Below the pieces are notes generated by a model, which saw nothing but the letters and a program-made list of their open reading frames with translations, was not told the origin of the DNA and searched no databases. The translations under genes were made by a program, and so were the position numbers. From positions 1 through 64,000 of the forward strand of contig NZ_JACXXG010000006.1 in NCBI RefSeq assembly GCF_014764705.1: a stretch of 64,000 bases of DNA. The letters are read 5' to 3'. This document shows, in pieces, positions 26,082-45,180 of this stretch (the first letter of the stretch is position 1; each line of letters begins with the position of its first letter). This DNA comes from Stutzerimonas kunmingensis. GTDB lineage: Bacteria; Pseudomonadota; Gammaproteobacteria; Pseudomonadales; Pseudomonadaceae.

Positions 26082-27818
26082 TCAGACCGCCACCAGATGA
26101 TCCTCGCCGACCGCGTCGAAGCGCTGCGGCGGCGCCCGGAAGCCCTGCGGCTTGATCGGATCGGGCGCCTCGAAGGCCTCGAGCAGCGCCTTGAAGTCGC
26201 GCCGGCGGTCGACGTCGGGCATGGGCACCGCCTCTAGCAGGCGCCGCGTGTAGGGATGCCGCGGATTGTGCAGCACCTGGTCGCGGCGACCGATCTCGAC
26301 GATCTTCCCTCCATACATCACCGCCACCCGGTGACAGATGCGCTCGACCACCGCCAGGTCGTGAGAGATGAACAGGTAGCTCAGACCATGCGTCTCGCGC
26401 AGCCGCTCGAGCAGTTCCAGCACCTGCGCCTGCACCGAGACGTCCAGCGCCGAGACCGATTCGTCGGCGATGATCAGCTTCGGGTTGAGCGACAGCGCGC
26501 GGGCGATGCAGAGGCGCTGGCGCTGGCCGCCGGAGAACTGGTGCGGGTAACGGGTCATGGCGTCGGCGGCCAGGCCGACGTCCTCGAGCAGCGCGGCGAC
26601 CCGCTCGCGGCGTTCGGCCAGCGGCAGGCGGTCGTGAATCAGCAGCGGCTCGCCGACCAGTTCCAGCACCGTCTTGCGCGGGTTGAGCGCAGCGTAGGGG
26701 TCCTGGAAGATCATCTGCACGTCGCGCCGCACGGCCTGTAGCGCCTCGCCCTGCAGGCCGTTGAGCTCGCGGCCGTCGAGCTTCACGCTGCCCTGGTAGG
26801 CGAGCATGTTCATCAGCGCCTTGCCGGTGGTGGACTTGCCGCAGCCGCTCTCTCCCACCAGCCCGAGGGTTTCGCCCTGGCGCAGGGTGAAGCTGACGTG
26901 CTCCACCGCGTGAACGTTGCGCACCGGTTCGAGCCAGCCGCCACGCACCGGAAAGCGCACGCACAGGTCGTTCACCTCCAGCAGCGGTGGGCGTTCACCG
27001 AGCGCCTCGGGCTCGCCGGCGCTGCCCAGCACCGGCACCGCGGCGAGCAACTTGCGCGTATAGGCCGCGGCGGGCGCGGCGAACAGCTGGCGCACCGGCG
27101 CCCGCTCCTCCATCCGCCCCTGGTTCATCACCACCACTTCGTCGGCCATCTCGGCGACCACGCCCATGTCGTGGGTGATCAGCAGCAGGCCGGTGCCGAA
27201 GCTCTGCTGCAGCTCGCGCATGAGTTCGAGGATCTGCGCCTGGATGGTCACGTCCAGCGCGGTGGTGGGCTCGTCGGCGATCAGCACGTCCGGTCGGCAG
27301 AGCATCGCCATGGCGATCATCACCCGCTGGCGCATGCCGCCAGACAGCTCGTGCGGGTACTGCGCCAGGCGCTTCTCGGCGTGCGGCATGCGCACCGCGT
27401 CGAGCATCTCGCGGGCGCGCCGGGCGATCTCGCGGCGCCCCAGCGGCTCGTGCCGGCGCAACGTTTCCTCGAGCTGCTGGCCGACCGTCATCAGCGGGTT
27501 CAGCGAGGTCATCGGCTCCTGGAAGATCATCCCCAGGCGCTTGCCGCGCAGCGGCTGCAGCTGCCGCTCGGGCAGGCCGAGCAGGTCGCGGCCCTCGAAG
27601 ATGATCGCCCCGCCGGGCACGCTGGCGGCGCGCGGCAGCAGGCCCATGATCGCCAGCGAGGTGAGCGACTTGCCGCTGCCCGATTCGCCGGCGATGCACA
27701 GCGTGCGGCCGCGTTGCAGGGCGAAGCTCAGCTCGTCGACCACCCGCCTGGGGCCAAAGTCGATGGTCAGGCGTTCGACGGAGAGCACGGGGCGGTCGGG
27801 GGATGTCGAGGTGTTCAC
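26082..27818 (-). CDS. Fused double ABC ATPase of a peptide/amide-type importer (DppD-DppF fusion)
   Basis: 578 residues with two complete nucleotide-binding domains in one chain. The first (about 1-270) has Walker A GESGSGKS and signature LSGGMRQRV, the second (about 290-560) GESGCGKST and FSGGQRQRL. Each is followed by an oligopeptide-transporter C-terminal motif ([12 protein letters not shown] in the second). It energises the DppB/DppC-type permease encoded upstream. Fusion of the usual DppD and DppF is known in rhizobial and pseudomonad peptide, glutathione and nickel importers. Last gene of the operon led by the amiC-like gene. Confidence 0.93.
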
Positions 27819-27906: not shown

Positions 27907-28854
27907 TCAGGCGAACACCACCTTCGGCACGTAGAAGGACACCACCCAGTTGGGCAGGTCGACGATCTCGCTGATGCGCAGGTCGCCGCACACCGAGCAG
28001 AGCATGTAGGCCTGTTCGGCCGGCATCCTGTGCTCGCGGCAGAGCCAGTCGATGGCGCTGCTGACCGCGCCGCGGGCGGCCTGCATCAGGTCCGGGCCAA
28101 TCCCGGTGAAGGCTTCGTAGCCGGTGCCGTCGAGGTGCCGGGTGACCGGCCCGGGAGTGCTGAAGCGCGGCGCGGCGAGCTTCTCGCCCTTGATCAGGTC
28201 GAGCGTGACCACGGCGTTCATCCGGCTTTCGATGGCCGTGCCGCAGACCTCGCCGTCGCCCTGGGCGGCGTGGGTGTCGCCGATGGAGAGCAGCGCACCT
28301 TCGACCTCCACCGGCAGGTACAGGGTGGTGCCGGCGGCCAGGTCGCGGATGTCCAGGTTGCCGCCGACGCGCCGCGGCGGCACCACCGAGTGCAGGCCGG
28401 GTTCGGCCGGGGCGACGCCGATGGTGCCGGCGAAGGGCTTGAGCGGTATCCGCGCGAAGTCGCCGAAGGCGGCCGGCGCCAGGCTCTCGGTGTCGTACTG
28501 CCAGAGCGCCAGGGCCGGTTCGAGGAACTGGTCGGCGAGCAGGCCGAAGCCGGGGATGTTGGCGGTCCAGCCGAAGCCGGACGGCTTGAAGCTGTCGATG
28601 GTGACCTTGAGCACGTCGCCGGGCATGGCGCCTTCGACGAACACCGGGCCGCTGACCGGGTTGATCCGGTCGAACGGCATGCTGGTGACGTCGGCGACGA
28701 CGGAGTCCTTGGTGAAATGGCCGTTGGACGAGTCGTGGCATTCGAACTCGAGGGTAGTGCCGGGCGCCACCCGCTCCACCGGGGTGAAGCTGTTGTCCCA
28801 GCCGAAGTGGCTGTGGACGCTGTGAATCGTCTTGACCAAGCAGTTCTGACACAT
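27907..28854 (-). CDS. Acetamidase/formamidase (FmdA/AmdA family)
   Basis: 315 residues. The family core is clear ([54 protein letters not shown]). Family members hydrolyse formamide or acetamide to ammonia and the acid in the cytoplasm as metal-dependent amidohydrolases. Position between the solute-binding protein and the ATPase of an ABC importer, and under an AmiC/AmiR-type regulator, supports a role on an imported amide. The N terminus MCQNCLVK is unusual with a CxxC; a shorter start is possible. The 88 bp behind it contain a CGAGCAAGCTCG palindrome. Confidence 0.9.
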
Positions 28855-28915: not shown

Positions 28916-30523
28916 TTATTTCACCGAGATGTAGTCGTAGTTGACCGGCACGTGCACCGGGTCGACGTAGAGCGCGTCGTCGCCGGCCATGCGCGCCGAG
29001 CGCACGGTGAAGCGCTGCTCGTTGAAGATCGGTACCCAGGGCGCGTCGGCCATCGCCTCGAGGAACACCTCCTTCCACAGCGCGATGCGCTCGGCTTCCT
29101 GCGCCGGGTCGGCCATGGCATCAGCCTGCGCGGCCTTGGCATCGAGCGCCTTGTTGCAGTACAGCGCCCAGTTCCAGCCGCCATCGACCGCCCCGGCGCA
29201 ACCGAGAATCGGCCCATAGAAATTCGACGGATCCGGGAAGTCGGCGATCCACCCCATACCGCCGGACCAGACCATCGGCGCCTGGTTCGGCTCGCTGCCG
29301 GCGGCGATCACGTTGGCCTGCGCCAGCGACTTGATCTGCGCGCGGATGCCGACCTTGGCCAGGTCCTGCTGGATCGACTGGGCGATGCGCGGCTGCGGGT
29401 CGGTGTTCATTACGAACAGCTCGGTGTCGAAGCCGTCGGCGAAGCCGGCCTCGGCGAGCAGCTTCTTCGCGTCCTCGACATCGTAGGCGTAGCCCTGGTA
29501 GTCCTCGGCGTAGCCGGGCATGGCCGGCGGCAGCGGCTGGTTGGCCGGGGTGGCGCGGCCGTTGATGATGCGCACGATGCGGTCCTTACTGATGGCCATG
29601 TTCACCGCCTGGCGCACCTTGAGGTTGTCGAACGGCGGCAGCGTGGTCTTCAGCGTCAGGTAGCCGGTGTGCAGCTGGTCGCCGACCACCAGCAGGTCCT
29701 TGTACTTCGGGTCCTTGCGGAACTGCAGGAACTTGGCCGGCGGCACGCCGTCGCCGGCGATGTCGACCTCGCCCTTCTCCAGGCGCAGCAGGGCGACCAT
29801 GGGCTCCTGGCCGACCTCGAAGGTGATGCCGTCCAGACGCGGGATGCCGGCCTTGTAGTAGTCCGGATTCTTCTTGAACACCAGCTTCTGGCCCAGCTGC
29901 CAGTCGGCCAGGGTGAAGGCGCCGGTGCCGACCGGGTGCTTGCCGAAGTCGGCGCCCCATTTCTCGGCCTCTTCCCTGGGCACCACCGAGGCGAAGTTGA
30001 TCGCCATCACGTGTAGGAAGGTGGCGTTGGGCGCGCTCAGGGTGATCTTCACGGTGTAGTCGTCGAGCACCTCAATGCCGCTCAGGGTCTCGGCCTTGCC
30101 CTCGGCCATGGCGTCGAAGCCGGCGATGGAGTTGAAGAAGCCGGCGCCCGGGCTCTGGGTCTTCGGGTTGACGGTGCGCTCGAGCGAGTACTTGACGTCC
30201 GCGGCCTTCATCTCGCGGCCGTTGTGGAACTTTACGCCCTTCTTCAGGGTGAAGGTGTAGACGGTGCCGTCCTCGGAGATGTCGTAGTCCTCGGCGAGGT
30301 CCTTCTCCAGCTCGGTGGTGCCCGGCTTGTAGTCCATCAGGCCGTCGAACAGGCTCTTGATCATCGACCAGTTCTGCCAGTCGTAGCCGATCGCCGGGTC
30401 TAGCGTGGCCACGTCGTTCTGGTAGGTCACCACGATGTCGCCACCGGCCTTGGGCTCGGCGGCCAGCAGCGGGCCGGCGAACAGGGTGGCCGCGATGGCC
30501 AGGGAAATTGCCTTGCGCTTCAT
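28916..30523 (-). CDS. ABC transporter substrate-binding protein, peptide/nickel family (SBP_bac_5)
   Basis: 535 residues with a signal peptide (hydrophobic run ending LLAAEPKAGG), so periplasmic. Family motifs are seen: VTYQNDVATLDPAIGYDW near the N terminus, LAEDYDISEDGTVYTFTLKK, and ADVKYSLERTVNP. It captures the ligand for the DppBC-type permease. Ligand cannot be read; the linked amidase points to an amide or amide-containing peptide. Next upstream gene is the permease, 19 bp away. Confidence 0.92.
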   Translation of the reverse strand: MKRKAISLAIAATLFAGPLLAAEPKAGGDIVVTYQNDVATLDPAIGYDWQNWSMIKSLFDGLMDYKPGTTELEKDLAEDYDISEDGTVYTFTLKKGVKFHNGREMKAADVKYSLERTVNPKTQSPGAGFFNSIAGFDAMAEGKAETLSGIEVLDDYTVKITLSAPNATFLHVMAINFASVVPREEAEKWGADFGKHPVGTGAFTLADWQLGQKLVFKKNPDYYKAGIPRLDGITFEVGQEPMVALLRLEKGEVDIAGDGVPPAKFLQFRKDPKYKDLLVVGDQLHTGYLTLKTTLPPFDNLKVRQAVNMAISKDRIVRIINGRATPANQPLPPAMPGYAEDYQGYAYDVEDAKKLLAEAGFADGFDTELFVMNTDPQPRIAQSIQQDLAKVGIRAQIKSLAQANVIAAGSEPNQAPMVWSGGMGWIADFPDPSNFYGPILGCAGAVDGGWNWALYCNKALDAKAAQADAMADPAQEAERIALWKEVFLEAMADAPWVPIFNEQRFTVRSARMAGDDALYVDPVHVPVNYDYISVK

Positions 30524-30542: not shown

Positions 30543-31469
30543 TTAGTGTTTCTTGACGTCGATGCGCGGATCGACCAGTGGAACGGTGAGGTCCGCGATC
30601 AGGTTGCCGAGGACGATGGCCAGTGCCGACACGGTGGTCACGCCGACGATCACCGGGATGTCCACCTGCTGGATGGCCTGCCAGGCGAGCTGGCCGATGC
30701 CCGGCCAGCCGAACACCGACTCGACCACCACCAGCCCGCCCATGAAAATGCCGATATCGATGCCGATCATCGGGATCACCGGGACGATGGCGTTGGGCAG
30801 CACGTGGCGGGCGATCACCCGCAGCCGGCTCAGGCCCTTGGCGCGGGCGGTGCGGATGAAGTCCTGGTGCAGCACCTCGATCATCGAGGAGCGGGTCATG
30901 CGCGCGTACCAGCCGCTGCCGAGCACGCCAAGGGTCAGCGCCGGCAGCAGCAGGTGCTCAACGCCGCCGTAGCCACCGAGCGGGAACCAGCCGAGCTTCA
31001 CCGCGAAGAAGTAGAGCGCGAGCATGGCGGCGATGAACTGCGGCGCCGACACGCCGACGAAGGAGAAGGCCATCAGCAGCTTGTCGGCGAAGCCGCCGCG
31101 GCGCAGCGCGGCGATCACCCCGAGGCCGATGCCGATCAGCAGCTCGAAGCCGATGCCGGCGGCCATCAGCTGCAGCGAAGGCTTCAGCCGTGCGCCGATC
31201 AGCTCGGCCACCTCGCTGCGCTGGATGTACGAGCGGCCCAGGTCGCCCTGTACCAGGCCGGCCAGGTAGCGCCCGTACTGCACGTAGAACGGCTGGTCGA
31301 GCCCGAGCTGGGCGCGGATGCTGGCCACCACCTCAGGGGTCGCGCTGCGCCCGGCGATTTGCCGCGCCGGGTCGGCCGGCAGCATGAACAGCAGCAGGTA
31401 GGTGATCAGGGTGACGCCGAGCAGGATCAGCAGCGAGTAGCCGAGGCGGCGCAGGATGAAAGGAGCCAT
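30543..31469 (-). CDS. ABC permease, DppB type
   Basis: 308 residues with six predicted membrane helices and the DppB N terminus (ILRRLGYSLLILLGVTLITY). The inner-membrane EAA-type loop reads RTARAKGLSRLRVIARHVLPN. Its ATG shares one base with the stop of the dppC-type gene (TGATG), so coupling is expected. Gene order here is C before B, opposite to the common BCDF order. Confidence 0.93.
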   Translation of the reverse strand: MAPFILRRLGYSLLILLGVTLITYLLLFMLPADPARQIAGRSATPEVVASIRAQLGLDQPFYVQYGRYLAGLVQGDLGRSYIQRSEVAELIGARLKPSLQLMAAGIGFELLIGIGLGVIAALRRGGFADKLLMAFSFVGVSAPQFIAAMLALYFFAVKLGWFPLGGYGGVEHLLLPALTLGVLGSGWYARMTRSSMIEVLHQDFIRTARAKGLSRLRVIARHVLPNAIVPVIPMIGIDIGIFMGGLVVVESVFGWPGIGQLAWQAIQQVDIPVIVGVTTVSALAIVLGNLIADLTVPLVDPRIDVKKH

Positions 31470-32317
31470 CAGCGTCTCCCCGACAGGGTCGGGTCGAGCT
31501 CGTCGCGCAATGCGTCGCCCACCAGGTTGAAGGCCAGCGACAGCAGCACGATGGCCGCCCCGGGAAAGAACACCAGCCAGGGCGCCTCGGTGAAGTAGGT
31601 CTGGCTCTCGAAGATGATGTTGCCCCAGCTCGGCGTCGGCGGCTGTACGCCCACGCCGAGGAACGACAGGGTCGCCTCCAGCAGCACGGTTGTGGAGATG
31701 CCCAGCGTGGCCCAGACCAGAATGGTAGGCAGCAGGTGCGGCAGCAGGTGGCTGAACAGGATGCGCCGGGCGCTGGCGCCGAGGGTGCGCTCCACCGCGA
31801 CGAAGTCGCGCGCGGCCAGGGCCACCGTCTCCGAGTAGATCACCCGGGCGATCTGCACCCAGTTCACCATGGCGATCACCAGCGCGACGATCCACACGCT
31901 CGGCTGGAAGATCGCCGCCAGCGCGATCGCCAGCAGCAGCGCCGGGAAGGCCATCATCAGGTCGGTAAAGCGCATCAGCACGCTGCCCAGCCAGCCGCGC
32001 ACGAAGCCGGCGGTGAGCCCGACCAGGGTGCCGATCAGCACCGCCAGGCCGTTGGCAACCAGGCCGATGAAGAGCGAGGTGCGCGCGCCGTAGACCAGCC
32101 GCGAGAACAGGTCGCGGCCGAGCAGGTCGGTGCCCAGCCAGTAGGTCGAATCCGGCGGCAGCGGCGCGCCTTCCAGCGACAGGCCCTCGATGTACTGCTC
32201 GGAGGGGTCGTAGGGGCTGAGCCAGGGAGCCAGCACGGCGAAGGTCACCACGGTCAGCACGAACAGCAGCGACAGCGCCACCGAGGGGCGCCGCAGCAGC
32301 GCCAGCAGGATGTTCAT
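31469..32317 (-). CDS. ABC permease, DppC type
   Basis: 282 residues with the DppC hallmark WLGTDLLGRDLFSRLVYGART and the cytoplasmic coupling loop VERTLGASARRILFSHLLPH. It pairs with the DppB-like protein to form the channel. The start overlaps the stop of the amiR-like gene in an ATGA junction, tying transporter and regulator synthesis together. Confidence 0.93.
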   Translation of the reverse strand: MNILLALLRRPSVALSLLFVLTVVTFAVLAPWLSPYDPSEQYIEGLSLEGAPLPPDSTYWLGTDLLGRDLFSRLVYGARTSLFIGLVANGLAVLIGTLVGLTAGFVRGWLGSVLMRFTDLMMAFPALLLAIALAAIFQPSVWIVALVIAMVNWVQIARVIYSETVALAARDFVAVERTLGASARRILFSHLLPHLLPTILVWATLGISTTVLLEATLSFLGVGVQPPTPSWGNIIFESQTYFTEAPWLVFFPGAAIVLLSLAFNLVGDALRDELDPTLSGRR

Positions 32318-32916
32318 CGCTGCCGCTCCTGCCGCGGATCGGCGCCCAGGCGGTCGACCTCGAATTCGGCACAGAGCGCCTCGACGCTGCGGTTGAGGCG
32401 CATCGACAGCTCGCGCAGTTGCTCGTAGGCCTGCTGCTCGGTCAGCGTCCGCTCCACCATCAGCCGCGCCAGGGTGCGCGCCAGCAAGGGCCCGGCCTCG
32501 ACCCGCCGGGCCAGCGCCGCCTGCTGCCGGTTCGCCTCGGCCAGCCGCGCGCGCAGCCCGATGGCCATCATCAGCGTGGTGTACACCGAGCCCTGGGTGA
32601 TCGGCTTGTTCAGTAGTGCGGTGACGCCGAGCTCGATGGCGCGCTGGATCTGCGACAGCGTCTCGTGGGCGGTGAGCGCGATCAGCGGCACGCCGGCGGC
32701 CTCGAGTCGGGCCAGGGTCGCCGGGCTGGCGAAATGCTCCAGTTCGACGATGGCGGCGAAGCAGCCATCGAGCGCCGGCAACGTGTCGGCGGCCACCGCC
32801 TCGGCGGTGATGCCCAGGCGCCGCAGGCTCTTATGCAGGCTGGCCAGGGTGCGCTCGTCGCAGTCGACCAGCAGCAGCCGGCCGTTCTCGAAATCGGGAC
32901 GCGACAGGGACTTCAT
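32314..32916 (-). CDS. AmiR-like antitermination regulator with ANTAR domain
   Basis: 200 residues. A pseudo-receiver domain comes first (LLLVDCDERTLASLHKSLRR ... LIALTAHETLSQIQRAIELG), then a coiled-coil (RLAEANRQQAALARRVE) and a C-terminal three-helix ANTAR RNA-binding domain (LARTLARLMVERTLTEQQAYEQLRELSMRLN). In P. aeruginosa AmiR binds leader RNA to prevent termination and is held inactive by AmiC until an amide binds; the domain order here is the same. The acceptor aspartate position reads VELEH, so it is not expected to be phosphorylated. It overlaps the amiC-like gene by four bases. Confidence 0.9.
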   Translation of the reverse strand: MKSLSRPDFENGRLLLVDCDERTLASLHKSLRRLGITAEAVAADTLPALDGCFAAIVELEHFASPATLARLEAAGVPLIALTAHETLSQIQRAIELGVTALLNKPITQGSVYTTLMMAIGLRARLAEANRQQAALARRVEAGPLLARTLARLMVERTLTEQQAYEQLRELSMRLNRSVEALCAEFEVDRLGADPRQERQR

Positions 32917-34052
32917 TTGACGATCCTCAGGTGCTGCCGGGGGACCTCGTGACGCAGCGCCTGGAAGGCGCCGAGGTCGGTGGCGGTGAGGTAGGGGTCG
33001 GCGGGCAGCGCTGCGGCCTCGCTGTGCAGCAGCTCGAAGCGGCCGGCGCGCAGCTCGGCGATGTGGCAGGGCAGGCTCGAATGGTTGTTGCGCGACGACA
33101 CCCGCAGCTCGCCGAGCACGCCGGGCAGCGGATGCCGGTAGAGGTAGTCGCAGATCACCTCGGGCGCGTCGCTGCCGGTGTGCTGCAGGGCCTCGGCGAA
33201 GGCGTGCACCGCCACGTAGGCGCCGGTGTAGTAGTGCGAGCAGCGGTCGAGCCCGTGCACCAGTTGCTGGCACCGGCTGAATTCGGCATGCACGCTCTCG
33301 AAGAACGGACCGCAGGACAGCAGGCGCAGGTTCGGCCGCTCGCCGACCTCGCCCAGCTCCGCCTCGGTGAGGTTGCAGCTGAGCACCGGCAGGCGGATGC
33401 CGGCCTGCGCGCAGGCGGCGTCCAGCTCGCGCAGGAAGGCGTAGGAGGACTCGCCCACCAGGTTGTTCAGCACGAACGAGGGCGCCTGGCCCATGAGCGT
33501 GGGAATCGCCTCGGCGAAGCCGGTGCCGCCCAGGTGCACGTACTTCTCGCCGAGCACCCGGCCGCCGGCCAGCTCCAGCACCTCGCGGGCGATCCGGTTG
33601 CTCTCCCAGCCCCACACGTAGTTCGAGCCGATCAGGTAGCCGCGCGCGCCGAAGGTGGCCAGCGCGTAGCGCAGCAGCGGCACCAGCGTCTGGTTCGGGC
33701 AGGCGCCGAGGTAGAGCACGCTCTCGCTGCTCTCGAAGCCCTCGTAGGGGCAGCCATACCAGAGCAGCCCGCCCTGCTGTTCCAGGTCGGGAATGATTTC
33801 CTTGCGGCTGGCCGAGGTGATGGTGCCGAACAGGTGCCGCACGCCCTGCTGCATCAGCGCGGCGGTTGCCTCGCCGTAGCGGCTCAGCTCGCCACGCGGG
33901 TTGCAGTGGGTGGCGGCCAGCTGGAAGTCCAGCTGCGGGTCGGCATTGATCTCGGCCAAGGCATCGCGGGCGCCAGCCAACGCATGGCGGGCCATCCGGC
34001 GGTAGGTGCCGTCGGTGGAGAGCAGCAGGCCGATGGGCAGTGTTCGACGCAT
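32913..34052 (-). CDS. AmiC-like amide-sensing periplasmic-binding-fold protein
   Basis: 379 residues without a signal peptide, so cytoplasmic, like AmiC. It follows the family along its length: PIGLLLSTDGTYRRMARHAL, GTITSASRKEIIPDLEQQGG, CPYEGFESSESVLYLGACPN, and SRNNHSSLPCHIAELRAG. AmiC binds short amides between two lobes and releases AmiR. First gene of the operon; its ATG lies only 22 bp behind the leader terminator, with a weak ACGGAA ribosome site. Confidence 0.9.
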   Translation of the reverse strand: MRRTLPIGLLLSTDGTYRRMARHALAGARDALAEINADPQLDFQLAATHCNPRGELSRYGEATAALMQQGVRHLFGTITSASRKEIIPDLEQQGGLLWYGCPYEGFESSESVLYLGACPNQTLVPLLRYALATFGARGYLIGSNYVWGWESNRIAREVLELAGGRVLGEKYVHLGGTGFAEAIPTLMGQAPSFVLNNLVGESSYAFLRELDAACAQAGIRLPVLSCNLTEAELGEVGERPNLRLLSCGPFFESVHAEFSRCQQLVHGLDRCSHYYTGAYVAVHAFAEALQHTGSDAPEVICDYLYRHPLPGVLGELRVSSRNNHSSLPCHIAELRAGRFELLHSEAAALPADPYLTATDLGAFQALRHEVPRQHLRIVK

Positions 34053-34073
34053 TTTTCCGTGTTCCCAGAAACG

Positions 34074-34113
34074 AAAAAAGCCCGATCGACCAGCAGGCTG
34101 GTGGATCGGGCTT
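34074..34113 (-). terminator. Leader terminator immediately before the amiC-like gene
   Basis: On the minus strand AAGCCCGATC (34113-34104) pairs with GATCGGGCTT (34087-34078) around an inner ACCAG/CTGGT stem, followed by six T. It is oriented into the operon and only 22 bp from its first start codon, so any upstream transcript must pass it. This is the expected place for an AmiR-controlled antitermination site. Confidence 0.85.
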
Positions 34114-34136
34114 CATTACCCGGCGCCCGGGGGCGC
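34107..34136 (-). promoter_or_regulatory. Candidate ANTAR RNA target: two adjacent hairpins, second overlapping the terminator
   Basis: On the transcript CGGGU-AAUGAA-GCCCG (34122-34107) forms a five-pair stem with a hexaloop having A at position 1 and G at position 4, the signature of ANTAR-bound loops. Its 3' arm GCCCG is also the 5' arm of the terminator, so the two folds exclude each other. Directly upstream GCGC-CCCCGG-GCGC (34136-34123) could be the partner hairpin, but its loop lacks A1 and G4. The match is therefore one strong and one weak half. Confidence 0.55.
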
Positions 34137-34149
34137 GAATGGTCACAAG

Positions 34150-34191
34150 GCTTACGAGGCAGAGCCCGGCTTGCAGTGGATGCGCTTGCCC
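34150..34191 (-). other. Possible 13-codon leader reading frame
   Basis: ATGGGCAAGCGC... encodes MGKRIHCKPGSAS and stops 37 bp before the terminator stem. It has no convincing Shine-Dalgarno and is listed only because it lies in the leader of an attenuated operon. Confidence 0.2.
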
Positions 34192-34524
34192 ATGAAAAAA
34201 GGATGCCAGATCGCCAACAACGGCCCTGGGCAGGCGGTGGGGCGACGCCCAGCCGCCCAGCCCGCACCACAACAGGTCGCACAATCGCTGTCACGCGCCA
34301 GCCTGGTGCGAAATGCATGCAGCCGCTCAAGCCTCGCCGGGCCCGCAGGGTGCGCCGTGCGCACCGCGTATCCATCAGCGCATCACGAAACGCCACTTCT
34401 CGCTGTCGAGCGACGACGAATGCCGTGAGGCGATCCTCGCAAGCGTTGCGTTGTTCGCATCGCAGTGCCGTGCAGCCCGCAGAAACTGCAATCTTCCAGG
34501 GCACCGACGCAGGGCAATCGCTTG
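34192..34524. other. Leader/upstream region of the amide operon, no gene seen
   Basis: The promoter of the operon should lie here or in the IS fragments behind it, but no clear sigma-70 or sigma-54 element was recognised. Part of it may belong to the ISAs1 remnant (GCAATCTTCCAGGGC near 34489-34503 may be close to the IS end). Confidence 0.35.
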
Positions 34525-34840
34525 AAGGCTGGCCAAGCCCGAGAAGTGCAGCGCGATAGGTATCGGAGGTGGATGCAACCAGGCGGCGGGTCTTGATACC
34601 TCCCTTCTTGCCAGTGGGGTCGAGCCGAAACAGGTTGAGGACGAGCTGTTTGAGCACGGCCAGGTTGTGTGCGGCGTATTGTGTCCTGGCACGCATCTGG
34701 CCATCGGCGAAGGCGACATCCATGCACCAGTGCAGTTGGTTCTCGACGCTCCAGTGCGCACGTATGGCTTGGGCCAGGCGTTGGGCATCGGCAGGCAACT
34801 GCTGATATAGCAACGATATTCTGTTGTCTGCCGTCCCTTG
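34525..34840 (-). mobile_element. ISAs1-family transposase fragment (C-terminal part)
   Basis: The minus strand encodes RAHWSVENQLHWCMDVAFAD, then AAHNLAVLKQLVLNLFR and GGIKTRRLVASTSDTYRAAL, the C-terminal signature of ISAs1 DDE transposases (family form HWGIENSLHWVLDVAF). The N-terminal two thirds are missing; sequence identity stops where the IS605 relic starts at about 34849. It is a dead remnant and the likely source of the broken surroundings of the amide operon promoter. Confidence 0.8.
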
Positions 34841-34848
34841 ACCCGGTG

Positions 34849-35262
34849 CGCGGCAAGCCTCGGCCTTCAGGCCGGGGAAGGATAGCGCGGGCCGCGAGGC
34901 GGCCCTATGATGTTCTGTATATCCGAACAGTGCGTGGAACGGCGGTTGGCTGATTGCCGTGCCGCCACAGACACGAGCCGCACCTGCCCGTTGCGACCAT
35001 GTGTCGGCGGACAACCGGCAGATGCAAGCGCAATTCCGCTGCGTCGAGTGCGGCTTCGAGGAAAACGCCGATGTGGTCGGCGCGATCAATGTGTTAAGGG
35101 CGGGACACGCCCGGTTCGCCCGTGAAGTGAGTGGTGCGGTAAGGCCGCCAGCAGCAGGAACCCACCGAGGTGAGTCAGCCCTCACGGGCTGAACACGGTA
35201 GGAATCCCCTTCCTTTCCGCCCCGGGCGGTGAGCGTCAGCGAGAGGGAGGGGAGGATATCAA
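34849..35262. mobile_element. Decayed IS200/IS605 element (second copy, internally deleted)
   Basis: The left end TGCGCGGCAAGCCTCGGCCTTC...GGGGAAGGATAGCGC matches the left end at 201-244 of the complete element. The right end has CCCCTTCC (35206-35213) and GGGAGGGG (35245-35252), then AGGATATCAAG, matching 1751-1781. Between them tnpA and most of tnpB are gone. The two elements are of one family but different lineages, because their TnpB tails differ. Confidence 0.8.
34953..35192 (+). pseudogene. TnpB C-terminal remnant with frameshift
   Basis: Reading TSRTCP in one frame and CDHVSADNRQ, FRCVECGFEENADVVGAINV in another reconstructs a TnpB zinc finger (CPxC ... CVEC) and RuvC III region. The frame changes near 34995. 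What remains is the last quarter of the protein, without RuvC I and II, so it cannot cut DNA. The 3' region could still supply a guide RNA scaffold. Confidence 0.8.
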
Positions 35263-36083
35263 GCTTTTCGTGCTGCTCTGGGGCAGTGCGGCCATCTTCA
35301 CCCGCTGGGGACTCGACCACGGCACTCCGTTCGCGCTGCTGGTCGTGCGCTTTTCTCTGGCCCTCGCTGCGGTTCTGCTGATTGGCTTGTGCCGCAGGCG
35401 CTGGCGGCCCGCGCCAGGTACTGCCTGGCAGACGGCGGCCACCGGGCTGCTGATGATCGGCTGTTATTCGATCTGCTATTTCCAGGCCATGGCCCATAGC
35501 GTTACGCCGGGGGTAATGGCGACGCTGCTCGGCGTCCAGCCGATCCTGACCCTGCTGCTACTGGAACGGCGCTTCTTGCCGCTGCGCCTGCTCGGGCTGC
35601 TGGTGGCGCTGGCCGGGCTGGCCGCGGTGGTGTTCCAGAGCCTGGTGCTGGCGCGCTTCTCGCTCGCCGGGATGCTGTTCGCCCTCGCTGCGCTGCTGTG
35701 CATGACCTTGGGTGCGATCCTGCAACAGCGTATCCGCCAGAGTCCGGTGGAAGTGCTGCCGGCGCAGTACGGGGTAAGCCTGCTGCTGTGTCTGGTGTTC
35801 GTGCCGTTCCAGCCGTTGCGCTTCGAGGCCGTTGTCGGCTTCGTCGCCGGTGCTCTGGCTGGGGCTGGTGATTTCGGTGGCGGCGCAGCTGCTGCTGTAC
35901 CGCATGATCCAGACCGGCAATCTGGTCAACGTCACCAGCCTGTTCTATCTGGTGCCGGTGGTCACCGTGGGGATGGATTACCTGTTGCTCGGCAACCGGC
36001 TGTCGCATCTCGGCCTGCTGGGCATGGGCGCGATCCTGCTGGGCCTGGCGCTGGTCTTCAAGGCGGCCCCGGCGCAGCGTTGA
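35263..36083 (+). pseudogene. DMT-family (EamA) transporter, N-terminally truncated and frameshifted
   Basis: From the IS605 end the frame reads LFVLLWGSAAIFTRWGLDHG, normally residues about 8-27 of an EamA/DMT exporter, so only the start codon and a few residues were lost. Eight or nine helices follow in this frame to PLRFEAVVGFV; then the sequence continues as PVLWLGLVISVAAQLLLYRM in the next frame, indicating one extra base near 35844-35846. Both lesions mean no normal protein is made. Confidence 0.85.
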
Positions 36084-36129
36084 ACGGCAGGGCCGGACGG
36101 CGCATGCGCCGTCGCGGCCCTGCACGATT

Positions 36130-37503
36130 TCAGCTCACCACCCGATAGCACGGCTCGTAGGGGGCACCGCCCGGCAACTTCATCCGGTGCTGCCGAACGA
36201 AGGCCTGCAGCAGGTCATCCAGCGGCCGCATGATCGCCGCGTCGCCGTGGATCTCGTAGCGCCCGTACTGTTCGATGCGGCGGATGCCCTTGTCCTTGAC
36301 GTTGCCGGCGACGATGCCGGAGAACGCGCGGCGCAGGTTGGCGGCCAGCTCGTGGGCCGGCAGCCCGCGCCTGAGTTGCAGGTTGGCCATGTTCTCGTGG
36401 GTGGGGTCGAACGGGCGCTGGAAGCCTTCCTCGATCTTCAGCAGCCAGTTGAAGTGGAAGGCGTCGTTGCGTTCGCGGCGGAAGCGCCTGACCGTTCTCA
36501 GCCCCTCGGTCATCTCCCTGGCCACTTCGCTGGGGTCGTCGATGATGATCTGGTAGCGCTGCTGCGCGTCCTCGCCCAGGGTCGCGCCGACGAACGCATG
36601 GATCTGCTGCAGGTAGGCCGCGGCGTCCCGCGGGCCGGTGAGGATGACCGGGAAGGGCAGCTCGCGGTTGGCCGGATGCAGCAGGATGCCGAGCAGGTAG
36701 AGGAATTCCTCGGCCGTGCCGACCCCGCCGGGGAAGATGATGATGCCGTGGCCGACACGCACGAAGGCTTCCAGGCGTTTCTCGATATCCGGCAGGATCA
36801 CCAGTTCGTTGACGATCGGGTTGGGCGCCTCGGCGGCGATGATGCCCGGCTCGGTCAGCCCCAGGTAGCGGCTGCCGACCAGCCGTTGCTTCGCATGGCC
36901 GATGGTGGCGCCCTTCATCGGGCCCTTCATCACGCCGGGGCCACAGCCGGTGCAGACGTCCAGGCTGCGCAGGCCGAGTTCGTGGCCGACGCGCTTGCTG
37001 TACTTGTATTCCTCGGTGCTGATCGAGTGCCCGCCCCAGCACACCACCATGTTCGGCTCCACGCCGGGGCGCAGGGTGCGGGCGTTGCGCAGCAGGTGGA
37101 ACACGTAGTCGGTGATGCCCTGCGAGCTGCTCAGGTCGATGCGGGCGCTGTCCAGTTCGCTCTCGGTATAGACGATGTCGCGCAGCGCGCTGAAGAGCAT
37201 TTCCCGCGTGCTGGCGATCATCTCGCCGTCGACGAAGGCGTCGGCCGGGGCGTTGAACAGTTCCAGGCGCACGCCGCGATCCTGTTGCAGGATGCGCACC
37301 TCGAAATCCTCGTAGGCTTCGAGGATGGTCTTGGCGTTGTCGATGCGCGTACCGGTGTTGACGATCGCCAGCGCGCACTGGCGGAACAGCTTGTGGGTCC
37401 TGCCCGCGCCGACTTCGCTGAGTTGCTGGACTTCGCGTTGCGAGAGGGTTTCCAGGCTGCCCTTGGGGCTTACCGAGGCGTTGATTACGTAGCGTTGGGT
37501 CAT
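36130..37503 (-). CDS. ppnN: Pyrimidine/purine nucleotide 5'-monophosphate nucleosidase
   Basis: 457 residues, the length of E. coli PpnN (YgdH). The central LOG/Rossmann domain has the signature FPGGVGTAEEFLYLL and VCTGCGPGVMKGPMKGA; N- and C-terminal extensions are those of PpnN (MTQRYVINASVSPKGSLETL, and RRAFSGIVAGNVKDKGIRRI). It splits nucleoside monophosphates into base and ribose-5-phosphate and is stimulated by (p)ppGpp in E. coli. It is transcribed alone on the minus strand. Confidence 0.93.
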   Translation of the reverse strand: MTQRYVINASVSPKGSLETLSQREVQQLSEVGAGRTHKLFRQCALAIVNTGTRIDNAKTILEAYEDFEVRILQQDRGVRLELFNAPADAFVDGEMIASTREMLFSALRDIVYTESELDSARIDLSSSQGITDYVFHLLRNARTLRPGVEPNMVVCWGGHSISTEEYKYSKRVGHELGLRSLDVCTGCGPGVMKGPMKGATIGHAKQRLVGSRYLGLTEPGIIAAEAPNPIVNELVILPDIEKRLEAFVRVGHGIIIFPGGVGTAEEFLYLLGILLHPANRELPFPVILTGPRDAAAYLQQIHAFVGATLGEDAQQRYQIIIDDPSEVAREMTEGLRTVRRFRRERNDAFHFNWLLKIEEGFQRPFDPTHENMANLQLRRGLPAHELAANLRRAFSGIVAGNVKDKGIRRIEQYGRYEIHGDAAIMRPLDDLLQAFVRQHRMKLPGGAPYEPCYRVVS

Positions 37504-41923: not shown

Positions 41924-42052
41924 CGAAGGGTGTAAAAGCCCTTCGATGCTCCTTGTTGTGTTAAGTGTTGGCAGATCTCTGGACCCCGCCCTAGCGGTCC
42001 GGATTTGGACCTCGAACTTCCCCCTCCCCCAATGAAGTTCGAGGTTTTTTTT
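41924..42052 (+). ncRNA. ersA: ErsA-like small regulatory RNA (Spot 42 position)
   Basis: About 129 nt from the predicted start to the end of an eight-T terminator, close to the reported ErsA size. It opens with a hairpin (ATGCGAAGGG / CCCTTCGAT), has an unpaired centre, and closes with CCTCGAACTTC...GAAGTTCGAGG (42010-42044). The terminator loop is CCCCTCCCCC, a C-rich sequence of the kind ErsA uses against ribosome-binding sites. ErsA represses algC and other envelope genes in P. aeruginosa. Identity is inferred from location, promoter, size and structure. Confidence 0.8.
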
Positions 42053-42104
42053 GCCTGCAGAAAAGTGGATGAGGCCTCACCGGGGGCAATGGCCTGCGCA
42101 ATCT

Positions 42105-42319: not shown

Positions 42320-42366
42320 GTTACGAAATGGCCATTTGGCACTCATTTCAGACAAGGAGAGCACCC

Positions 42367-42885
42367 ATGCCAACACCCGCGTATCTGTCCCTCGAAGGCA
42401 CCAAGCAAGGCCTGATCACCGCCGGCACCTTCACCGAGGACTCGGTTGGCAACATCTTCCAGGAAGGCCATGAGGACCAGATCCTGGTGCAGGCCTTCCA
42501 GCATCAGGTCATCATCCCGCGTGACCCGCAGTCCGGCCAGCCGACAGGCCAGCGCGTACACAAGCCGCTGATGATCACCAAGGTATTCGATAAGTCGTCG
42601 CCACTGATCTTCAACGCTCTGACTTCCGGCGAGCGCCTGAACAAGTGCCGTCTGGAGTGGTACCGCACCTCGTCCACCGGCACCCAGGAGCACTACTTCA
42701 CCATCGAGCTGGAAGATGCGGTGATCGTCGACGTGCAGTCGCGCATGCCCAACTGCCAGGACCCGAACATGTCCCATTTCACCCATCTGGAAGACGTGTA
42801 CTTCACCTACCGCAAGATCGTCTGGACCCACGAGGTTTCCGGCACCTCCGGCTCCGACGACTGGCGCACCCCGATCGCTGGCTGA
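42367..42885 (+). CDS. hcp: Type VI secretion tube protein Hcp
   Basis: 172 residues with Hcp features (MPTPAYLSLEGTKQGLITAG, EDQILVQAFQHQVIIP, EHYFTIELEDAVIVDV, THLEDVYFTYRKIVWTHE). Hexamer rings stack into the T6SS inner tube and carry small effectors. The AAGGAG lies eight bases before the ATG. A strong terminator directly behind separates it from vgrG, so Hcp can be made in excess. Confidence 0.95.
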   Translation: MPTPAYLSLEGTKQGLITAGTFTEDSVGNIFQEGHEDQILVQAFQHQVIIPRDPQSGQPTGQRVHKPLMITKVFDKSSPLIFNALTSGERLNKCRLEWYRTSSTGTQEHYFTIELEDAVIVDVQSRMPNCQDPNMSHFTHLEDVYFTYRKIVWTHEVSGTSGSDDWRTPIAG

Positions 42886-42901
42886 TTCGCGGCGGTCCCG
42901 C

Positions 42902-42933
42902 TTCGGCCAGGCTCGCCTGGCCGAACGCTTTTT
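42902..42933 (+). terminator. hcp intrinsic terminator
   Basis: TTCGGCCAGG-CTCG-CCTGGCCGAA followed by CGCTTTTT. Read-through would be needed for vgrG unless it has its own promoter in the 135 bp that remain. Confidence 0.85.
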
Positions 42934-43068
42934 GCGAAGCACTGAACAGATTCCGCCATCGTCGTTCTGGAATGCGCTAACCATGCATTCTAGAGCGGCC
43001 GGCCTGTGTTACACGGGGCTCCGCAAGCGCCCATGCGCTGATACATGGACTGAACAGGAGGAACATGG

Positions 43069-45180
43069 ATGTTCGCCCCAGCCAACCAGGCCCACTTCAC
43101 GCTTTCCCTCGAAGGCATCGAGCACGACTTCAAAGTGCTCGAATTCCAGGGCCGCGAGGCCATCAGCCAGCCCTATCGCTTCGACCTGGAACTGGTCAGC
43201 GAGCACCCCGATCTGGATCTGGAACGCCTGCTGCATCGCCCGGCCTTCCTCGCCTTCGCCCCGGACGGCAGCGGCATCCACGGGCTGGTGCATCAAGCCG
43301 CCCAAGGTGAATCCGGCCAGCGCCTGACCCGCTATCGCCTTACGCTCGTGCCGCAGCTGGCCTACCTTGCGCACAGGACCAACCAGCGCATCTTCCAGCA
43401 CCTCAGCGTGCCGCAGATCGTCGCCCAGGTGCTTGATGAACACGGTATCCAGGCCGATGCCTACCGCTTCGGGCTTGGCCCGATGATCTACCCGCCGCGC
43501 GAATATTGCGTGCAGTACGACGAATCGGACCTGCACTTCATCCAGCGCCTGTGCGAGGAAGAGGGCATCCACTATCACTTCCAGCACAGCGCGGCCGGTC
43601 ATGCCCTGGTCTTCGGTGATGACCAGACCGTCTTCCCCAGGCTCGCTGCCACCGCCTATCAGCAGGACAGCGGTCTGGTCGCCGACCAGCCGGTGATCAA
43701 GCGCTTCGGCCTGCGCCTGGAAACCCGTACCAGCCGGCTCACGCGCCGCGATTACGATTTCGAGAAGCCACGTCTGACCATGGAGGCCGCGTTTCATAGC
43801 GACTTCCAGCCCGACCTTGAAGACTACGATTACCCCGGCCGCTTCACCGAGCGCGCCCGCGGCAAGCACCTGTCGCAACGCGCCCTGGAGCGCCACCGCC
43901 ACGACTACGAACTGGCCGAAGGCGAAAGCGACCAGCCGCAGCTGGCGAGCGGGCACTTCCTCCCGCTCACCGAACACCCCCGCAGCGACTGGAACCAGCT
44001 CTGGCTGCTGGCCGAAGTGCTGCATGAAGGCAAGCAGCCGCAGGTGTTGGAGGAGTCAATTACCAATGTCCCAGCTCACCACGGACTGGCCCCCTCTCCC
44101 CTATGGGGAGAGGGCTGGGGTGAGGGGGCTCTTACCAGCTCCCACTTCCAACAAGGCTACCGCAACCAATTCACTGCCACCCCCTGGGACATCCCCTTCC
44201 GCCCGGCTCTGAAGCATCCGAAGCCGAAGGTTCTCGGCAGCCAGACCGCCGTGGTTACCGGCCCGGCCGGCGAAGAAATCCACTGCGACGAGTACGGCCG
44301 AGTACGCGTTCAATTTCACTGGGATCGTGAAGGCCAGGCCGACGACAAGACCAGCTGCTGGCTGCGCGTCAGCTCCAGCTGGGCCGGCGACCGCTACGGC
44401 GGCATCGCCATTCCGAGGGTCGGCATGGAAGTGCTGGTGACCTTCCTCGAAGGCGACCCCGACCAGCCGCTGGTGACCGGTTGCCTGTACCACAAGGAAC
44501 ACCAGGTCCCCTACGACCTGCCGGCCAACAAGACCCGCAGCGTCTTCAAGACCCTGAGCAGCCCGGGCGGTGGCGGCTATAACGAACTGCGCATCGAAGA
44601 CCGCAAGGGCGCCGAACAGATCTACGTCCACGCCCAGCGCGACTGGGACGAGAACATCGAGCACGACCAGAAGATCCGCGTCGGCCACGAACGTCACGAC
44701 ACGGTGGAGGCCAACAGCTACAGCGAGTTCCGCGCCGAAGAACACCGCACCACCCACGCCGACCGCAATACCGAAATCCGCGCCAACGACCACCTCACCG
44801 TGGGCAATACCCAGCACCTGAAGATCGGCACCGGGCAATTCATCGAGGCGGGCAACGAAATCCACCTCTCCAGCGGCCTCAAGGTTGTACTGGAAGCCGG
44901 AAGTGAACTGACCTTCAAGGCTGGTGGCAGCTTTATCAAGCTCGATGCCAGCAGCGTGACGATGGTCGGGCCAGTGATCAGGATGAACTCGGGAGGGAGT
45001 TCAGGCAAAGGCTCTGGTGCGGCGCCGATATTGCCTGGGAAGGCCAAGCCGGCGGATGCGGATAAGGCGGGTGTACCGCTGGAAGCCTTGCTTAAGCAAA
45101 ACCTGCTATTTCGCAGTACTCGAGCGGGCGTATGCGAACTATGCGAGGCGGCCAAAGCACAGCAGGAGACCAAGGTATGA
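43069..45180 (+). CDS. vgrG: Type VI secretion spike protein VgrG
   Basis: 703 residues. Residues 1-about 320 match the gp27-like base (FTLSLEGIEHDFKVLEFQGR, YDESDLHFIQRLCEEEGIHY), about 400-480 the gp5-like OB fold (CDEYGRVRVQFHWDREGQAD, WAGDRYGGIAIPRVGMEVLV), then the beta-helix needle (EANSYSEFRAEEHRTTHADR) and DUF2345-type tail. AGGAGG precedes the ATG. Residues about 334-358 include an insertion, LAPSPLWGEGWGEG, encoded by a palindromic repeat and foreign to the family. The C terminus has a CELC motif. It overlaps the DUF4123 gene in ATGA, so the spike, adaptor and effector are coupled. Confidence 0.95.
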   Translation: MFAPANQAHFTLSLEGIEHDFKVLEFQGREAISQPYRFDLELVSEHPDLDLERLLHRPAFLAFAPDGSGIHGLVHQAAQGESGQRLTRYRLTLVPQLAYLAHRTNQRIFQHLSVPQIVAQVLDEHGIQADAYRFGLGPMIYPPREYCVQYDESDLHFIQRLCEEEGIHYHFQHSAAGHALVFGDDQTVFPRLAATAYQQDSGLVADQPVIKRFGLRLETRTSRLTRRDYDFEKPRLTMEAAFHSDFQPDLEDYDYPGRFTERARGKHLSQRALERHRHDYELAEGESDQPQLASGHFLPLTEHPRSDWNQLWLLAEVLHEGKQPQVLEESITNVPAHHGLAPSPLWGEGWGEGALTSSHFQQGYRNQFTATPWDIPFRPALKHPKPKVLGSQTAVVTGPAGEEIHCDEYGRVRVQFHWDREGQADDKTSCWLRVSSSWAGDRYGGIAIPRVGMEVLVTFLEGDPDQPLVTGCLYHKEHQVPYDLPANKTRSVFKTLSSPGGGGYNELRIEDRKGAEQIYVHAQRDWDENIEHDQKIRVGHERHDTVEANSYSEFRAEEHRTTHADRNTEIRANDHLTVGNTQHLKIGTGQFIEAGNEIHLSSGLKVVLEAGSELTFKAGGSFIKLDASSVTMVGPVIRMNSGGSSGKGSGAAPILPGKAKPADADKAGVPLEALLKQNLLFRSTRAGVCELCEAAKAQQETKV
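44090..44129. repeat. REP-like palindromic element inserted in frame in vgrG
   Basis: CCCCTCTCCCC-TAT-GGGGAGAGGG followed by CTGGGGTGAGGGGGC is the dispersed repeat known from many proteobacterial genomes, usually intergenic. Translated it gives the familiar SPLWGEGWGEG. Its insertion kept the frame open. Confidence 0.85.

Follow-up and report, generated by a model that had tools for sequence, protein, structure and literature searches.

Sequence analysis indicates that an intrinsic terminator that precedes an operon for amide uptake in the window (the whole 64,000-nucleotide stretch of DNA analysed here) very probably serves as an RNA on/off switch run by the operon's own AmiC/AmiR pair. Comparison of orthologous loci showed that the antiterminator hairpin P2, the terminator, the structure of a further element at the 5' end of the leader, the promoter motif, the operon and the AmiR fold are all conserved. 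The complete explanation, which combines the promoter, the terminator, AmiR acting at P2 and the 5' element as the upstream hairpin P1, appears probable to us. Its component in which AmiR acts through P2 is highly likely, whereas the proposal that the 5' element is the first AmiR site stands at about even chances.

The operon lies on the minus strand and begins with an amiC-like gene for a cytosolic amide sensor of the Peripla_BP_5 family (32913..34052), which matches the AmiC structure PDB 1pea with an E value of 4e-36. It is followed by an amiR-like gene encoding an AmiR/EutV-like ANTAR antiterminator (32314..32922), the OppC-like (31469..32317) and OppB-like (30543..31472) ABC permeases, a family-5 solute-binding protein, SBP_bac_5 (28916..30523), an acetamidase/formamidase family enzyme (27907..28854) and an ABC transporter ATPase with two ATPase halves (26082..27818). 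The gene order amiC-amiR-permease-permease-SBP-amidase-ATPase is kept among the loci compared: of 80 loci examined by tblastn, 49 have the seven genes complete and in order (40 of 41 gammaproteobacterial and nine of 39 alphaproteobacterial) and 30 more have all but amiR, whereas L041 differs; by motif search, 79 of the 80 encode an ANTAR-type protein. The gammaproteobacterial set (L009-L049) covers Pseudomonas, Stutzerimonas, enterobacteria, Halomonadaceae, Marinobacter and Vibrionaceae. An earlier note, made from the window alone, had seen here the amidase logic of Pseudomonas aeruginosa applied to a peptide-type ABC importer and a formamidase. The SBP_bac_5/OppBC-like importer and the FmdA_AmdA amidase indeed recur over the 41 gammaproteobacterial loci, but "formamidase" holds as a family assignment only, because the enzyme scores 193 bits against Pfam FmdA_AmdA yet 127.6 bits against the NCBIfam formamidase equivalog FmdA (NF045496), whose cut-off is 500.

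One of these loci, L009, on a contig named Pseudomonas indoloxydans, encodes operon proteins 99-100% identical to those of the window. It also shares the stretch beside the operon in which, directly upstream of the regulatory region, we read decayed transposase-like and TnpB-like remnants from the translations (window positions 34400-35270). The assembly of the window falls in a genus group with genomes resembling the Stutzerimonas records L010-L012, and its relation to L009 may reflect transfer, naming or contamination.

The core of the putative switch is the P2 hairpin (34107..34122, minus strand), CGGGU-AAUGAA-GCCCG, with A1 and G4 in its hexaloop AAUGAA (34117-34112). Its 3' arm doubles as the 5' arm of the intrinsic terminator (34077..34114, minus strand), whose U-tract (34079-34074) ends 22 nt before the amiC start codon (ATG at 34052). 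The last 71 nt of the leader fold into this terminator at -36.7 kcal/mol, with a z score of -4.1 and none of 200 shuffles equal; a 141-nt fold is unremarkable (z -1.3). We counted hexaloop hairpins of at least 5 bp with A1/G4 whose 3' arm starts a terminator of at least 9 bp, a definition fixed after the site had been seen, and found a single occurrence on both strands of the 64 kb, compared to 0.05 per window in 40 first-order Markov simulations. The earlier claim of such a terminator-overlapping hexaloop 22 bp before the first open reading frame is thus confirmed on the minus strand. A simple terminator scan of the window did not list the 34114-34077 terminator. A promoter downstream of the terminator had been named beforehand as a finding that would speak against the switch; no sigma70 promoter-like site was found within 33000-37000, and the gap between U-tract and ATG is only the 22 nt given above.

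Loss of the hexaloop from orthologous leaders had likewise been named as contrary evidence, and it is kept throughout. Each of the 41 orthologous leaders retrieved from gammaproteobacteria has a hexaloop hairpin ahead of the first gene, followed by a T-tract, so that the window and all 41 share a hallmark of ANTAR-target RNAs, a second hairpin P2 whose A1/G4 hexaloop overlaps an intrinsic terminator. G4 is found in every one of the 41 loops and A1 in 40, the exception being L044 (G1), which has the stem nevertheless. The A1/G4 stem measures at least 4 bp in 33 leaders, and in the remaining seven it was read as 3-bp GGC/GCC. RNAalifold recovered the terminator from 39 aligned sequences, with compensatory changes in nine of 15 predicted pairs. 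Alignment A1 was made without L037 and L042, and alignment A2 without L029, L037, L042 and L047 (identical copies dropped).

The second gene had been taken for an AmiR-like ANTAR protein, which is borne out. Its product has the pseudo-receiver, coiled coil and ANTAR domain of the AmiR family, and its AmiR-like fold agrees with AmiR (1qo0) and with RNA-bound EutV. The positions of Glu160, Arg168 and Met172, among the RNA-contact residues described for EutV (PMC8934654), are invariant in 18 aligned AmiR sequences. With the amiC-like gene directly upstream, the protein is presumably gated by AmiC. Altogether, the conserved P2 and terminator, the conserved operon and an ANTAR protein as its second product make AmiC/AmiR antitermination well supported.

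In 79 of the 80 loci L009-L088, the position of the G in the P2 loop tracks the ANTAR residue at the position of EutV Tyr164: aromatic with G4 in 45, aromatic with G5 in four, leucine with G5 in 29 and leucine with G4 in one. Only three changes on the tree explain this pattern; the correlation is therefore largely one evolutionary transition and not independent evidence. The classical amiE locus L136, from a Pseudomonadaceae genome, combines a His at this position with a G5 loop, as read here.

Upstream of the leader lies a sigma54-like promoter (34194..34208, minus strand) with a -24 box TGGCA (34208-34204) and a -12 box TTTC (34197-34194). The TGGCA and the 12-nt spacing from GG to C are both as in sigma54 promoters, and from this spacing the predicted +1 is at about 34182, only a few nucleotides ahead of the 5' element. 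Sites matching at least 9/12 positions of the sigma54 consensus occur in 35 of the 41 gammaproteobacterial loci (2.5% in shuffles), with TTTC rather than TTGC as the -12 box in most loci and T rather than G at -13 in 33 of 40. Further upstream, the NtrC-like enhancer site CGCACCAGGCTGGCGCG (34294..34310, minus strand) deviates at three of 14 specified positions from the consensus. With up to three mismatches allowed, such a site occurs 150-330 bp ahead of the start codon in 20 of the 41 loci (0.7% in shuffles). In the four Vibrionaceae loci, neither type of site is convincing. A sigma54-like promoter accompanied by NtrC-like sites suggests that the operon may be gated by nitrogen starvation and amide together. 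In P. stutzeri A1501, however, mutation of ntrC was described to improve, not impair, the use of formamide and acetamide (PMC8443478), which would speak against NtrC control if that strain carries this operon.

The 5' element itself (34143..34176, minus strand; 31.5 bits with our model R1) has in the window, at 34173-34146, the sequence CAAG-C-C-[GGGC UCU GCCU]-CG-UAA-G-C-CUUG. It consists of an outer stem, a C-G pair with a bulged C, an asymmetric internal loop and an apical hairpin, in total 35 model positions and nine pairs, with the consensus CAAG-Y-N-[hairpin]-N(N)UAA-R-Y-CUUG, in which the UAA of the internal loop is near-invariant. The range singled out earlier, 34074..34136, had left out both this covarying element and the sigma54-like promoter. 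The structure was named from reading the sequences, and alignment A4 was fitted to it; on that structure, on which all pair counts rest, 88.1% of cells are paired over 41 distinct sequences compared to 78.2 in shuffles, and 37 pair changes are two-sided compared to 10.8, a number that none of 500 shuffles reached. The covariation score of 0.322 (0.146 in shuffles) was likewise reached by none of 500, and slid registers all stayed at or below 0.161. Below the internal loop, C-G is replaced by U-A in four Salinicola rows, and the outer stem CAAG/CUUG becomes UGAG/CUCA in Vibrio or UUGAG/CUCAA in Grimontia; an A.C mismatch interrupts the stem in seven of the 41 leaders. RNAalifold alone returned no pairs for the element from MAFFT alignments (no pairs at all with alignment A2, the terminator only with A1). 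Single-sequence folds of the element are mostly unremarkable (z -1.6 to +0.9 in ten leaders, -0.08 in the window), and in some cases the minimum-energy fold departs from the named structure.

The 5' element travels with this operon. Among 298 Pseudomonadaceae genomes, R1 matched 18 sites, of which 14 lie directly before an orthologous amiC, and these are exactly the genomes whose AmiC is at least 61% identical to the query (14 of 14). The other four (L099, L100, L107 and L108) fall within open frames 681-1458 nt long. In a set of 274 genomes from the class, R1 found the genome of the window and L110, the latter match within a 1056-nt frame. In these genome sets, credible matches occur with this operon only, and we rejected the reading as a general riboswitch. 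R1 also detected the element in L102, L103 and L106, none of which was used in building it, and we recognised it by eye in a Pseudomonas canadensis plasmid locus (L142), also outside the build. None of the 39 alphaproteobacterial loci gave a match, in a run whose filters also missed L048 and L049 (recovered later at E 0.12 and 0.033); AmiR systems in general therefore do not need the 5' element. R1 found none either in the classical amiE operon L136 or in five further loci whose AmiC relatives are more distant.

By published description, an ANTAR-target RNA has two hairpins, each with a stem of 3 bp or more and an A1/G4 hexaloop (PMC3369931, PMC8164766), and in Enterococcus faecalis deletion of P1 was described to abolish control by EutV (PMC3369931). 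Within the 75 nt upstream of P2, a canonical P1 of this kind is present in none of the 41 gammaproteobacterial leaders (1.8 in shuffles), whereas the identical test does detect an A1/G4 hairpin in the classical amiE leader of L136. In alphaproteobacterial leaders of the same operon, it is no more frequent than by chance (five of 38 against 4.2 in shuffles), and the missing canonical P1 is thus not special to leaders with the 5' element. A search for two A1/G4 hexaloops (at least 4 bp each, gap up to 25 nt) in L136 and the five loci mentioned with it above returned none; it was too strict, since L136 fails it because its P2 is read as G5.

What, then, does the 5' element do? It precedes P2 by 11-27 nt in all 41 gammaproteobacterial leaders, close to the linker range of 2-25 nt in use for ANTAR RNAs (PMC8164766). 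Tentatively, and at somewhat less than even chances, we propose a new kind of ANTAR site, in which the apical helix splits a hexaloop-like ring, Y-[N (inserted helix) N U A A]-R; a single AmiR dimer would then read two structurally different elements, this one and a classical A1/G4 hexaloop. A less likely reading keeps the switch as proposed but leaves the 5' element unbound by AmiR, as a separate input (a small-molecule aptamer or the site of another protein) or as a 5' structure that stabilises the short terminated RNA. Its dissimilarity to a hexaloop, its near-invariant UAA, its place at the very 5' end and the restriction to this operon would fit, as would the alphaproteobacterial AmiR leaders that do without it. 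However, amide sensing is already supplied by AmiC, the element is small and kept at a bounded distance from P2, and the described ANTAR mechanism calls for two binding sites; nothing else that could supply the second was seen conserved in all gammaproteobacterial leaders.

The GCGC hairpin between the two elements (34123..34136, minus strand) is a further candidate. Its sequence GCGC-CCCCGG-GCGC, at 34136-34123, lacks A1/G4, as the earlier note had stated, but the proposal that it is an imperfect partner P1 failed, because 14 of the 41 leaders have no counterpart and none has an A1/G4 hexaloop upstream of P2; elsewhere the loops are mostly 3-8 nt, and in L017 the only hairpin found at this position overlaps the 5' element. 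We therefore rejected it as a P1 shared by these leaders. That it might be a working P1 in the pseudomonads under relaxed loop rules, with the 5' element as an auxiliary, is improbable for the same reasons, even though it sits immediately before P2 as a P1 would, several loops carry G4 (CCCGAU, CUCGAU, CUCGAC) and a juxtaposed hairpin, again mostly lacking A1/G4, is present there in many alphaproteobacterial leaders. Longer linkers between the 5' element and P2 usually hold the GCGC hairpin, which would shorten the real distance; hence we read it as a spacer or relic. An ordinary terminator that shields the operon from transcription originating upstream and has its hexaloop by chance would suit the mobile-element remnants upstream but is very improbable, given a hexaloop kept in its place before amiC in 41 orthologous leaders and a conserved promoter motif upstream of the terminator.

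For AmiC/AmiR antitermination with the 5' element as P1, we infer the following course of events. Nitrogen limitation would fire the sigma54-type, probably NtrC-activated promoter, which starts a leader of ~130 nt ahead of amiC. As long as no inducer is present, AmiC would hold AmiR, and the terminator at 34114-34077 would halt RNA polymerase before the first gene. Once a short amide binds to AmiC, AmiR would be freed and dimerise, and its ANTAR domain would grip the P2 hexaloop AAUGAA, keeping the arm GCCCG in P2 and preventing the terminator, so that the amide importer and the amidase would be made. The 5' element would stand in as the first AmiR-binding hairpin, though it has no A1/G4 hexaloop, and the GCGC hairpin would be a spacer or a degenerate relic.

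The closest known relative is the amiE/AmiC/AmiR system of P. aeruginosa, represented here by L136, a Pseudomonadaceae genome with the classical operon, which has in common the AmiC/AmiR pair, whose AmiR (1qo0) matches the fold found here, a terminator that shares an arm with a hexaloop hairpin, and an enzyme for short amides. By contrast, the L136 operon comprises amiE, an AAA gene, amiC and amiR, with amiE leading; it has a sigma70-like promoter, as seen by eye, and no 5' element. We read its P2 as AGAGC-AAAUGG-GCUCU (G5), with an upstream A1/G4 hairpin GCAUC-AGCGUC-GAUGU, which differs from the description of the amiE leader as A1/G4 (PMC3369931). Compared to it, the present system has an AANGAA-type P2, a non-hexaloop P1, a sigma54-like promoter and a peptide-type transporter. 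The eut RNAs of E. faecalis share the A1/G4 P2 hexaloop that overlaps a terminator, and EutV the aromatic, Glu, Arg and Met contact positions of the ANTAR domain; they differ in having two A1/G4 hexaloops and an antiterminator phosphorylated by a kinase, whereas the upstream stem here has an asymmetric internal loop. A third relative is the nasF leader of Klebsiella oxytoca, also a hexaloop leader, which we take to combine an NtrC/sigma54 promoter with antitermination; its NasR differs in sensing nitrate by a domain of its own. Two hexaloops are described for the nasF leader (PMC3369931).

AmiC/AmiR antitermination is already known. By its description, a plasmid of Klebsiella sp. KOS9 carries an amiC-amiR-ABC-amidase operon of the same gene set, with acetamidase activity measured in lysate after growth on acetamide (PMC13209695). 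The amiE of that report is probably the gene called acetamidase/formamidase here. Its section on genes and activity cites AmiR antitermination from earlier work and describes no leader RNA or promoter (PMC13209695). At gathering score, Rfam gave no match in the leader of the window or in nine orthologous loci; at a relaxed threshold, the best E value was 0.013, far under gathering scores, and the matches lie mostly over the terminator. A literature search outside subscription papers and supplements found no published description of the leader or its 5' element. With neither an Rfam match nor a description found, we read the leader as a novel form of ANTAR leader in which one defining trait, the canonical P1, is missing. 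In the structure of EutV with RNA, the two loops point towards each other, so that a single dimer cannot bind both of them on the same RNA (PMC8934654). A natural family in which another conserved structure takes the place of the upstream loop offers a direct way to study the simultaneous use of two hexaloops by an ANTAR dimer.

Leaders of this kind are common: 752 plasmid records carry the enterobacterial version, in 746 cases with at least 99% identity, and 721 of the records are from Klebsiella and 602 are predicted to be conjugative. Elsewhere in the window, an ErsA/Pseudomon-1 sRNA (RF01719, 130.7 bits) lies at 41946-42060 on the plus strand, followed on the same strand (42328-45180) by Hcp-like and VgrG-like type VI secretion genes, as read from the translations.
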